This document shows positions 11,887 to 26,388 of a stretch of DNA of 35,884 nucleotides, piece by piece. A program made the translations under genes and the position numbers. The DNA is from Candidatus Bathyarchaeota archaeon (GTDB lineage: Archaea; Thermoproteota; Bathyarchaeia; TCS64; PIYN01): positions 1 to 35,884 of the forward strand of contig PIYN01000023.1 in the NCBI GenBank assembly GCA_003601775.1, given 5' to 3'. The notes beneath the pieces were generated by a model. The model ran no database searches and was not told the origin of the DNA. It worked only from the letters and a program-made list of their open reading frames with translations. Positions within the stretch are counted from its first letter, which is position 1, and each line of letters begins with the position of its first letter.

Positions 11887-11894
11887 TTTTTAAG
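11887..11894 (+). promoter_or_regulatory. TATA box of the trpS leader transcript
   Basis: TTTTTAAG, about 50 bases before the leader-peptide GTG, predicts transcription starting near 11915. The wider AAAATTTTTAAG is nearly palindromic and could also serve the divergent CBS-HPF gene. The trpB2 leader has its TATA box at almost the same distance from its leader peptide. Confidence 0.5.
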
Positions 11895-11926: not shown

Positions 11927-12016
11927 GTGGAGGGTAGGAGCGTGTATCACTCGGACTGGGCAGGAGATCCCTCCTGACGGAGGGGCGTGAAGTCAGAAGC
12001 AGTCGCTACCTTCCAC
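11927..12016 (+). promoter_or_regulatory. Structured leader RNA of trpS
   Basis: An outer stem pairs 11927-11937 with 12006-12016 (11 base pairs, one G-U), and its 5' arm contains GGAGG, the binding site for the leader peptide. Inside, CCCTCC (11969-11974) pairs with GGAGGG (11979-11984) around a TGAC loop holding the leader stop codon TGA (11975-11977). GACTG (11954-11958) can also pair with CAGTC (12000-12004). The segment 11929-11959 is nearly identical to 24980-25012 before trpB2. Stems were found by eye; regulation is inferred. Confidence 0.6.
11942..11977 (+). CDS. Tryptophan-containing leader peptide upstream of trpS
   Basis: A GTG-started frame of 11 codons plus TGA, (M)YHSDWAGDPS. 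GGAGG at 11929-11933 is a good ribosome binding site 8 bases before the GTG. The peptide has one Trp codon at position 6, preceded by Asp, and its stop lies in the loop of a six- to seven-base-pair hairpin. A second peptide of exactly the same length at 24995-25030 before trpB2 shares residues 1, 5, 6 and 11. By analogy with bacterial trp and tna leader peptides, the ribosome on this frame may report tryptophan or charged tRNA-Trp; that is inference. Confidence 0.6.
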   Translation: MYHSDWAGDPS

Positions 12017-12114
12017 CTGATCTTCTAAGGTTCTTCCAACTCTGGGACGTGAGTTGTCTCCAAGGGTTGGACTCGATGGATTTTGGAGGTTCAGGGTTGG
12101 GTATGTGAGGTGAT

Positions 12115-13242
12115 ATGGAGATGGTGAAGAAGGAGGAGATGGTCGTCACCCCCTGGAAGGTCTCAGGGAGAATAGACTATGAGAAACTGATAAAGCAGTT
12201 CGGGACGCAGCCCATCGACGAGGAACTCCTCGAGAGGATAAGGGGGCATACGGGCCGCCTCCATCTCCAGCTGCGTAGGGGCCTCTTCTTCTCCCACAGG
12301 GACCTCGACTGGATCCTGGACAAGTATGAAGCCGGGGAGAAGTTCGTCCTATATACCGGGAGGGGTCCCTCTGGACCCGTCCACTTGGGGCACCTCGTCC
12401 CTTGGATCTTCACGAAGCACCTCCAGGACGCCTTCGACGCGAAGCTCTACTTCCAGATGACCGACGATGAGAAGTTCCTCGTGAACCCGGAGCTGACGTT
12501 GGAGGACACGGCGAGGTTCACCTATGAGAACGCCCTCGACCTCATCGCCTGTGGCTTCGAGCCGGGGAAGATGGTGATCATCAGGGATGTTAAGGACATC
12601 GGGCACCTCTACAGGATCGCCCTGAGGGTCGCGAAGCACGTGAACTACTCCACAGTCAAGGCGATCTTCGGCTTCGAGGACTCCTCGAACATTGGGATCA
12701 TCTTCTTCCCAGCCATCCAGGCGGTCCCCTGCTTCATCGCCTCGGAGGAGGAGGGACACAACGTCCCGGTCCTCATCCCAGCCGCCATCGACCAAGACCC
12801 CTACTGGAGGATGACCCGGGACATCGCCTCGAAGCTGGGCTACTACAAGCCCGCGCAGATGCACTGTAAGTTCCTTCCGGGCCTGGGGAAGGGGGGGAAG
12901 ATGTCGGCCTCGATGCCCGAGACCTGCATCTTCACCACGGATACCCCCGAGGAGGTGGAGCAGAAGGTCTGGAACGCCTTCACGGGGGGGAGGCCGACGG
13001 TGAAGGAGCAGAGGGAGCTCGGCGGGGACCCGAGCATCTGCACCGTCTATGCCTACTTCTACTACCTCTTCGAGGAGGACGACGAGGAGATCGCGGAGCT
13101 GGAGAGGAGGTGCCGCACGGGCGGCGTCCTCTGTGGTGACTGCAAGAAGAGGCTCACGGAGAGGATCAACAGATTCCTGAAGGTGCACCAGAGGAGGAGG
13201 GAGGAGGCGAAGGACATCTTGGACAAGTTCCTAATGGAGTAG
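12115..13242 (+). CDS. trpS: Tryptophanyl-tRNA synthetase
   Basis: Charges tRNA-Trp. The 375-residue product is of the archaeal/eukaryotic type: N-terminal VVTPWKVSGRIDYEKLI, then GRGPSGPVHLGH with the HIGH motif as HLGH near residue 88, and the KMSKS loop as GGKMSASMP near residue 262. The C-terminal helical anticodon region ends RRREEAKDILDKFLME. GTGAGGTGAT just before the ATG is a strong ribosome binding site; the ATG at 12139 is an alternative. It has an unusually long leader (about 200 bases from the predicted transcript start) containing the Trp leader peptide and stem-loops. The creatininase gene follows after 51 bases. Confidence 0.95.
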   Translation: MEMVKKEEMVVTPWKVSGRIDYEKLIKQFGTQPIDEELLERIRGHTGRLHLQLRRGLFFSHRDLDWILDKYEAGEKFVLYTGRGPSGPVHLGHLVPWIFTKHLQDAFDAKLYFQMTDDEKFLVNPELTLEDTARFTYENALDLIACGFEPGKMVIIRDVKDIGHLYRIALRVAKHVNYSTVKAIFGFEDSSNIGIIFFPAIQAVPCFIASEEEGHNVPVLIPAAIDQDPYWRMTRDIASKLGYYKPAQMHCKFLPGLGKGGKMSASMPETCIFTTDTPEEVEQKVWNAFTGGRPTVKEQRELGGDPSICTVYAYFYYLFEEDDEEIAELERRCRTGGVLCGDCKKRLTERINRFLKVHQRRREEAKDILDKFLME

Positions 13243-24807: not shown

Positions 24808-24934
24808 GGGCCTGAGGCAATAGCCTCCTAACCCCAAATTTTTCGTTTAACTAAAGACCCCTCCACTTCCCTCTAAACTTATTCTATTTTCTCAGTACCA
24901 GTCCCTCAATCCTAAGCTGGGGAAGGGAAAGGCT

Positions 24935-24942
24935 TTTATAAA
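24935..24942 (+). promoter_or_regulatory. TATA box of the trpB2 leader transcript
   Basis: TTTATAAA within CTTTTATAAAATAA, about 55 bases before the leader-peptide GTG; predicts a transcript start near 24965. The spacing to the leader peptide is close to that at trpS. Confidence 0.6.
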
Positions 24943-24979
24943 ATAAGGACCTCTACACGAGTCCAGCCAATCCGTTGTT

Positions 24980-25069
24980 GGAGGTGTAGGAAGCGTGCAT
25001 CAGCTGGACTGGCTAGAAAGGTCGTCCTAGAGGAAGGACGACTGCCCAGGAACTGGTATTGTATCCTCC
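24980..25069 (+). promoter_or_regulatory. Structured leader RNA of trpB2
   Basis: GGAGG (24980-24984), the leader ribosome binding site, can pair with CCTCC at 25065-25069, extended by a few weaker pairs. An inner hairpin pairs GTCGTCCT (25021-25028) with AGGACGAC (25035-25042), and the leader stop TAG (25028-25030) lies at the top of it. From GGAGG to GGACTGG the sequence is nearly identical to the trpS leader. AGTCCAGC (24959-24966) could alternatively pair with GCTGGACT (25003-25010). Unlike at trpS, the 3' half also encodes the conserved TrpB2 N-terminus in another frame. Confidence 0.6.
24995..25030 (+). CDS. Tryptophan-containing leader peptide upstream of trpB2
   Basis: A GTG-started frame of 11 codons plus TAG, (M)[10 protein letters not shown], with GGAGG 10 bases before the GTG. 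It has the same length as the trpS leader peptide (M)YHSDWAGDPS, with Met1, Asp5, Trp6 and Ser11 identical, and the stop again at a hairpin apex. The frame overlaps the upstream extension of trpB2 in a different register. Regulation by tryptophan supply is inferred from the two downstream genes. Confidence 0.6.
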
Positions 25070-25122
25070 CAGACCTCCCCGAACCGCTTCCACCGATCCT
25101 CGATCCCACTTCTAGGGAACCG

Positions 25123-26388
25123 GTGAAGCCAGAGCAGTTGGAGGTGCTCTTCCCAAAGGAGCTGATAAGGCAGGAGGTAAGCGGAAGAAGGTGGGTGCCG
25201 ATTCCGGGGGAGGTTAGGGAGGTGTACCGCCTATGGCGTCCGACGCCCCTCTACAGGGCGACTGGACTGGAGAGGGCGTTGAAGACGCCGGCGCATATCT
25301 ACTACAAGTATGAGGGAGTGAGCCCTCCGGGGAGCCATAAGCCGAATACCGCGGTGGCACAGGCCTACTATAACCGGGAGGAGGGGACGGAGCGGCTGAC
25401 GACGGAGACAGGCGCCGGGCAGTGGGGGTCTGCCCTCGCCTTCGCAGATATGTTCTTCGACCTCGAGACCATCGTCTACATGGTACGTGTAAGCTATGAG
25501 CAGAAGCCCTATCGACGGGTCTTAATGCAACTCTACGGGGCGAAGGTGTACCCGAGTCCAAGTGACAGAACCGAGGTGGGTAGGAAGATCCTCGAAGAAG
25601 ACCCTGACAATCCAGGGAGTCTGGGGATCGCGATAAGCGAGGCGGTGGAGGAGTGCATCAGGGGTGAGAGGACGAAGTACTCCCTTGGGAGCGTCCTCAA
25701 CCACGTCCTCATGCATCAGACGGTCATAGGGTTGGAAGCACTGGAGCAGCTAAGGGAACTCGAGGAGTATCCGGATAAGGTCATAGGGTGCGTCGGCGGG
25801 GGGAGCAGCTTCTCAGGCCTCTTCTGGCCCTTCTATTATGAGAAGAAGACGGGAAGGTCGCCGAAGCCTGTGGAGTTCATAGCCGTCGAGTCCACGGCCT
25901 GCCCTAGCCTTAGCCTGGGCGAGTACCTCTACGACCATGGGGACAGCGGGCGCATCATTCCCCTCGTGAAGATGTACACCCTCGGCCATGAGTTCATACC
26001 TGATCCCATTCACGCAGGGGGCCTCAGGTATCATGGGATGGCACCCACTCTCTCCCTCCTCGTGAGGAGGGGTGAGGTGGAGGTGAGGGTCTACGACCAA
26101 GTCGAAGTCTTCAACGCGGCCTCCCGCTTCATTAGGGCGGAGGGCTTCATACCGGCACCGGAGCCCGCTCACGCCATCAAGGCGGTGATCGACGAGGCCC
26201 TCAGATGTAAGGAGACGGGAAAAGAGGAGACCCTCCTATTCCTGCTCTGCGGACATGGCCACTTCGACATGAAGGCATACGACGACTTCCTCCAAGGAAG
26301 ACTCCCACCCTACAGATACCCCAGGGAGAAGATAGAGGAGTCCTTAGATCGGCTCAAAAAGCTCTATCCCTGGATAACCAAACGTTAA
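25123..26388 (+). CDS. trpB: Tryptophan synthase beta subunit, TrpB2 type (N-terminus probably extends upstream)
   Basis: A PLP enzyme condensing indole with serine to tryptophan. [15 protein letters not shown] contains the PLP lysine, [15 protein letters not shown] the substrate loop and [11 protein letters not shown] the phosphate-binding glycines. The [12 protein letters not shown] region and overall length are of the TrpB2 class, which often works without TrpA; no trpA is adjacent. The GTG at 25123 is the first ordinary start codon, but the same frame upstream reads [14 protein letters not shown] then [12 protein letters not shown], the conserved TrpB2 N-terminus, with no ATG, GTG or TTG back to a stop at 24913. 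Real synthesis may begin at a CTG (25009 or 25042) or by frameshift from the leader peptide. Confidence 0.9.

Follow-up and report, generated by a model that had tools for sequence, protein, structure and literature searches.

The DNA analysed here, referred to below as the window, is the stretch from position 1 to 35,884 of contig PIYN01000023.1 of a Candidatus Bathyarchaeota archaeon (assembly GCA_003601775.1). It carries trpS, encoding a tryptophan--tRNA ligase, and trpB2, whose product is a TrpB2-type enzyme (PRK12391/TIGR01415). An earlier note, made from the letters of this DNA, had described a short leader frame ahead of each gene. Both frames are indeed found 5' of the tryptophan--tRNA ligase gene and the TrpB2-type gene, each with GGAGG 8–10 nt before a GTG start and a TATA-like box farther upstream. 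The features of the two regions, all on the + strand, are as follows.

11887–11893, + strand: TATA-like box of the trpS leader (TTTTTAA), named for its sequence, with a putative role assigned by position
11929–11933, + strand: Shine-Dalgarno GGAGG, 8 nt 5' of the GTG of the trpS leader
11942–11977, + strand: frame-0 mini-ORF of the trpS leader, MYHSDWAGDPS followed by TGA
11942–11959, + strand: conserved 18-nt block of the trpS leader, GTGTATCACTCGGACTGG
11953–11959, + strand: candidate shift site G_GAC_TGG of the trpS leader, proposed from conservation
11956–12108, + strand: -1 frame ORF of the trpS leader, from CTG to TGA, its end 6 nt 5' of the trpS ATG
11968–11985, + strand: hairpin TCCCTCC-tgac-GGAGGGG of the trpS leader, 8 nt 3' of TGG, with the frame-0 stop in its loop
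12115–13242, + strand: trpS, tryptophan--tRNA ligase (NF008927, 1e-158)
24934–24944, + strand: TATA-like box of the trpB2 leader (TTTTATAAAAT), likewise named for its sequence and given a putative role by position
24980–24984, + strand: Shine-Dalgarno GGAGG, 10 nt 5' of the GTG of the trpB2 leader
24995–25030, + strand: frame-0 mini-ORF at trpB2, 11 residues followed by TAG
25006–25012, + strand: candidate shift site G_GAC_TGG at trpB2, proposed from conservation, with the -1 codon CTG at 25009–25011
25009–26388, + strand: trpB2 in the -1 frame from the candidate shift site, placed by the profile match of its N-terminus
25020–25043, + strand: hairpin GGTCGTCCT-agagga-AGGACGACT at trpB2, overlapping the frame-0 stop

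The trpS mini-ORF reads GTG TAT CAC TCG GAC TGG GCA GGA GAT CCC TCC TGA and its counterpart at trpB2 reads GTG CAT CAG CTG GAC TGG CTA GAA AGG TCG TCC TAG. Each window leader holds one Trp codon, and tandem or repeated Trp codons are not present in either.

The block recurs as GTGYATCANYYGGRCTGG in 41 exact copies, distributed over 29 of the 32 genomes of this Bathyarchaeia order, while a reversed-pattern control has no match in the same 32 genomes; the likeness of the two leaders is thus far above chance. No match to GTGYATCANYYGGRCTGG was obtained in the other 225 genomes of the class, and the named archaeal records that carry the block are all Candidatus Bathyarchaeota. Bacterial matches in a 257 Gb contig collection were set aside as not meaningful, as about 100 are expected by chance on our own estimate, and three matches in viral contigs also look like chance. 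Relaxed searches (three mismatches allowed, the 5' part alone, or the architecture of the locus) gained only a variant in one genome (G003); a single extra match of the 5' block with another codon (G030:C132) lies inside another gene and was taken as chance. The 40 copies with enough flanking sequence divide into 25 at trpS, 10 at trpB2, three at a TIGR04076 gene (one of these behind a trpB2 remnant) and two in a trpE region. Every assignable copy adjoins a Trp-linked gene, one of the 41 lying at a contig end. Asp-Trp and an early in-frame stop are kept across the order, as the earlier note had hoped to find in relatives, and part of its interpretation is supported: trpS and trpB2 share a Trp-linked leader element, very probably translated, with the single Trp codon as its key.

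TrpE (PF04715) was found in only two of the 32 genomes of the order (G005 and G020), in both cases behind the element. Most members, including the organism of the window, may be incapable of synthesising tryptophan from chorismate and dependent on indole via TrpB2 or on uptake. The TIGR04076 gene, which is small and of unknown function, follows trpB2 or replaces it behind the element (L091, G031:C59; L094, G014:C48; L097, G029:C60; directly 3' of trpB2 in L034), a placement that suggests a role in tryptophan or indole metabolism. Several genomes (G018, G010, G029 and G030) have two tandem trpS copies, apparently behind one element, the second copy being about 55% identical to the query.

What is fixed in the block is the nucleotide sequence. 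Within the block, TAT is never exchanged for TAC, nor GAC for GAT; CAN allows His or Gln, and YYG allows Ser, Leu or Pro. Information content is maximal or nearly so over the 18 nt except at three positions (N, Y and Y), with the invariant positions partly set by the search pattern, and conservation drops directly after UGG. This bears on the mechanism that the earlier note had preferred, in which arrest or stalling at the Trp codon of a leader peptide alters RNA structure or transcription termination with no change of frame. A conserved mini-ORF with a Trp codon ahead of Trp genes is what such control would predict, yet an arrest peptide of the TnaC kind should have fixed residues and free synonymous sites, and here TAT and GAC are never replaced by synonyms while H/Q and S/L/P interchange. 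The short frames are real and conserved but are not classical leader peptides; the conservation acts on the nucleotides and not on the peptide only. A search for a terminator/antiterminator pair found no sense-strand terminator-like site in the window, by a scan that covers archaeal termination incompletely, and Rfam covariance models gave no match to the whole window (gathering threshold) or to the trpS leader (E up to 1).

Counted from the GTG, frame 0 runs into a stop at +24 to +39 in 40 of 40 loci, one to seven codons past UGG in all of them and with TGA, TAG and TAA all in use. In frame +1 the first stop falls at +22 to +64 in trpS leaders, and at the other loci the length is not consistent. 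Within trpB2, the frame-0 stop hinges on the choice of a Leu codon, and is present in 10 of 10 motif loci vs 5 of 18 others. Well-formed loci have a Shine-Dalgarno sequence 7–10 nt 5' of the GTG, and in many relatives ATG, TTG or GTG is also found two codons upstream of it. A perfect stem of 5–9 bp that starts 5–9 nt after UGG, and whose loop holds or borders the frame-0 stop, is seen in about 30 of the 40 loci, the base pairs differing from locus to locus. This hairpin is present at 10 of 10 trpB2 loci and is stronger at motif loci than in non-motif TrpB2 (p 9e-6), while about ten trpS leaders are without a clear one, which we count against a frameshift. A second pairing, of GGACTGG with a downstream CYAGTCC in trpS leaders, was visible by eye in some loci and was rejected as inconsistent.

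The -1 frame through the block (xGT GTA TCA NYY GGA CTG G) is open, and at trpB2 it is the TrpB2 frame itself. The earlier note had placed the trpB2 leader before its gene; the mini-ORF is there, but it overlaps the trpB2 coding frame, and the -1 frame had been overlooked. This frame encodes the family-typical TrpB2 N-terminus (ILLxEDxIPKxWY). For the window TrpB2, the PRK12391 alignment starts at profile position 4 when read from 24997 vs position 41 when read from the GTG at 25123, and by sequence comparison the true N-terminus is placed upstream of that GTG. Of the 10 motif loci, 9 have no ATG, GTG or TTG in the TrpB2 frame ahead of the conserved segment, whereas in 18 of 18 motif-less TrpB2 relatives an ordinary start codon stands a few codons 5' of it (Fisher p 1.4e-6). 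In three of the motif loci the TrpB2 frame contains a TAG at a distance of two codons 5' of the block. Three loci carry a -1-frame GTG immediately ahead of the block, and this counts against a frameshift. Gene calls that depend on a start codon shorten trpB2 by about 40 residues in the window (25009–25122) and at most motif loci, and the starts of TrpB2 genes in these genomes are corrected accordingly here.

In 25 of 25 trpS leaders, the -1 frame runs for 30–70 codons and its end falls within -6 to +22 nt of the trpS start; the stop and start are commonly joined as ATGA, TTGA, TAGATG or TAGGTG. When leaders were shuffled, single-locus probabilities of 0.04–0.45 were obtained, giving a joint p of about 1e-20 for the 25 trpS loci, which are not fully independent although the leaders are highly diverged between genera. 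Substitutions in the -1 ORF between neighbours show no codon-position bias, so only openness is kept and not a peptide; on this evidence the -1 ORF appears to keep an unbroken path for ribosomes. A protein function for it was rejected on the same ground, the window copy also having no family match. We also rejected the idea that the leader buries the trpS ribosome-binding site, as native leaders leave this site slightly more open than shuffled ones do; since the site is not unusually buried, termination-reinitiation coupling or protection of the nascent transcript is likelier than unfolding. An exposed site also counts against a frameshift, as it offers no way for a blocked leader to lower trpS expression. 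In the trpE region of G005 (L093, G005:C2) a gap of 128 nt separates the end of the -1 ORF from the annotated trpE start, which we count against a frameshift; a chain of tiny ORFs with ATGA and TGATG overlaps lies between the two and possibly passes ribosomes toward trpE. In L095 (G020:C149) the -1 ORF has 113 codons and extends over the start of a gene with weak resemblance to chorismate mutase (23 bits, below the cut-off), which is followed by trpE.

These frames weigh further on leader-peptide control. Although the hairpin after the mini-ORF would suit it, it leaves unexplained both the open -1 frame in 25 of 25 trpS leaders and a TrpB2 coding frame that lacks a start codon of its own, and it is opposed by the missing sense terminator, the lack of an Rfam match and the fixed nucleotides at codons 3 and 4, whose amino acids are free; we consider it highly unlikely. 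It is scarcely credible, in our judgement, that the frames are accidental and that the block serves as a DNA operator or as the RNA target of a Trp-sensing protein. Fixation at the nucleotide level and occurrence only at Trp genes would agree with such a site, but the block is not palindromic, and a binding site does not predict frame-0 stops at all loci, openness of the -1 frame or loss of the trpB2 start.

Natural variants of the element were also informative. An architecture scan, which required a start codon, a TGG, a stop in frame 0 within 45 nt and a -1 frame ending at the trpS start, recovered the motif loci together with G003 trpS, and outside the order it gave one weak match among some 14 loci. 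The G003 trpS block, GTGTTAGAGCTGGACTGG, is diverged and without GUGUA, and it keeps CTGGACTGG and the open -1 frame. In G005, UGG and CUG have both been lost from the trpB2 copy, where an in-frame GTG provides the start; at the trpS copy of the same genome, UAG replaces UGG and the -1 frame is closed.

Taken as a whole, these results make it probable, in our view, that the element acts as a switch based on -1 programmed ribosomal frameshifting under tryptophan control, a reading drawn from comparative sequence analysis. Translation would start at the GTG, or at the ATG, TTG or GTG two codons upstream, and proceed for about five codons to UGG. With plentiful Trp-tRNA, UGG would be decoded and frame 0 kept, the ribosome meeting the stop one to seven codons on and leaving the downstream gene unreached; the short frame-0 peptide would then be a by-product of not switching, a Trp-replete decoy. 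With Trp-tRNA scarce, the A site would stand empty at UGG, and the tRNA in the P site (the one for Asp at GAC, the one for Gly at GGC) could slip back one base on G_GRC to GGR, aided by the downstream hairpin. CUG would replace UGG in decoding and translation would proceed in the -1 frame; in the trpS leader of the window, the slip would be to GGA, with CTG (11956–11958) read instead of TGG. At trpB2 the -1 frame would be TrpB2 itself. At trpS, the -1 ORF would deliver the ribosome to the trpS start by translational coupling, or would keep the transcript covered. All targets fit induction by Trp shortage, a dependence to which the identity of trpS, trpB2 and trpE points.

The shift site has some of the expected properties of such a switch and lacks others. 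The G before GRC is invariant, as it would have to be for the P-site tRNA to slip back by one base, and UGG is invariant in motif loci at Trp genes. As in hungry-codon frameshifting, the A-site codon is cognate to the amino acid taken to be limiting and the P-site tRNA would be able to slip; after the slip, the A-site codon would be CUG. A frame-0 ORF overlaps a -1 ORF that would run on into the expressed product. Of the stem-loop or pseudoknot 5–9 nt downstream that is looked for in -1 programmed frameshifting, the stem-loop is seen in about 30 of the 40 loci and is absent or weak in some trpS leaders. The site is G_GRC_UGG and not a slippery heptamer X_XXY_YYZ for two-tRNA slippage, so only the P-site tRNA could re-pair. 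For GAC moving to GGA the re-pairing is imperfect, with the first pair kept, G-U at the second and A-G at the third, and is counted against a slip; for GGC moving to GGG, seen in one genus, the first two pairs are kept. The same P-site step is known from the shift site of pea enation mosaic virus, G_GAU_UUU (PMC5009743), and the 'hungry' mode of -1 frameshifting consists in slippage of a single tRNA in the P site while the A site is vacant (PMC8211752).

The -1 frame could instead be entered without any slip, by direct initiation at a CUG overlapping the UGG codon (GGA CUG G), with the GTG mini-ORF acting as a competing or regulating overlapping upstream ORF. The CUG is invariant and lies within about a codon of the starts used by relatives, and CUG starts do occur in nature. 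The Shine-Dalgarno sequence, however, is more than 20 nt before the CUG and nothing purine-rich serves it, and this explanation predicts neither the invariant G_GRC nor that conservation ends exactly at UGG; we regard it as unlikely. Other routes of frame change at the block (a +2 slip, a 5-nt hop, a slip of the start codon from GUG to GUA, or removal of bases from the RNA) are, taken together, rather less credible still. They gain from the fact that -1 and +2 yield the same frame, and we favour the -1 direction provisionally; in addition, a GAY that could serve as landing codon lies 5 nt past GAC at some trpB2 loci. A hop of peptidyl-tRNA-Asp to this codon was nonetheless rejected, as the landing codon is absent from many loci, and a start-codon slip does not need UGG and is at odds with the G003 variant, which is without GUGUA.

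Returning to the frameshift switch, the slip leaves the 5' half of the block, GTGTATCA, unexplained, which counts against this reading; GTGTATCA may act through the nascent peptide, through a contact with rRNA or as part of the start. As a separate observation, the two Y bases of codon 4 are concordant between copies within 7 of the 10 genomes that have two or more copies, and they match between trpS and trpB2 copies more commonly than expected in spite of differing flanks; this concordance could reflect gene conversion or a partner that acts in trans. On balance we favour the wider proposal that one 18-nt cassette has spread to trpS, trpB2, trpE and TIGR04076 genes, senses the charging of Trp-tRNA via one hungry UGG and thereby moves ribosomes into the reading frame of the gene.

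Regulatory frameshifting and amino-acid attenuation are each known already. If the proposal is true, amino-acid starvation shifts ribosomes into the frame of the gene that relieves that starvation, and to our knowledge hungry-codon frameshifting would here have its first natural use, and a frameshift cassette would for the first time form the basis of a regulon. A literature search, from which subscription journals were mostly absent, found no such starvation-to-frame cassette described. The cassette is short and has moved between genes, and is therefore directly testable in a reporter.

Several known systems share part of this design. Bacterial trp attenuation, TnaC and T-box leaders use RNA structure to control transcription termination or initiation. 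Like them, the element would sense a Trp codon or charged tRNA-Trp ahead of trp genes or trpS; unlike them, it has no terminator, tandem Trp codons or Rfam match, and the gene's own frame would depend on the event at UGG. The bacterial prfB gene, for release factor 2, is autoregulated by a +1 frameshift at a slow UGA stop codon. There too a slow A-site codon among the first codons senses the gene's product and drives ribosomes into the productive frame, whereas the element described here would use a sense codon, sense a charged tRNA, shift by -1 (or +2) and serve several genes, where prfB uses a UGA stop, shifts by +1 and serves prfB alone. The prfB frameshift is treated also in PMC5009743.

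The hungry-codon frameshifting studied by Gallant and others offers the same proposed step, an A site left empty at the codon of an uncharged tRNA and a P-site tRNA that slips, but it is known as an error or a laboratory effect (PMC5009743, PMC8211752); a 2016 review of recoding knew of no starvation-specific trans-frame product from a hungry codon and of no natural use (PMC5009743). In ketolide-induced frameshifting in the ermC leader, a shift within a short leader ORF likewise passes the stop and permits downstream expression. That shift, in contrast, is induced by an antibiotic, is largely independent of sequence and unfolds the mRNA, with no conserved shift site and no amino-acid sensing (PMC5009743). 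For archaea, the only cellular -1 frameshift that one review reports is that of fucA1 in Saccharolobus solfataricus, which resembles the proposed switch in being a -1 programmed frameshift in an archaeal cellular gene with a putative downstream stem-loop, and differs from it in having an A-rich heptamer, in being confined to a single gene and a few strains, and in having no known regulation (PMC8211752). The element is best described as working like regulatory -1 frameshifting, though without the classical X_XXY_YYZ heptamer, and because that heptamer is absent we file it as a variant, and not a plain member, of this class.
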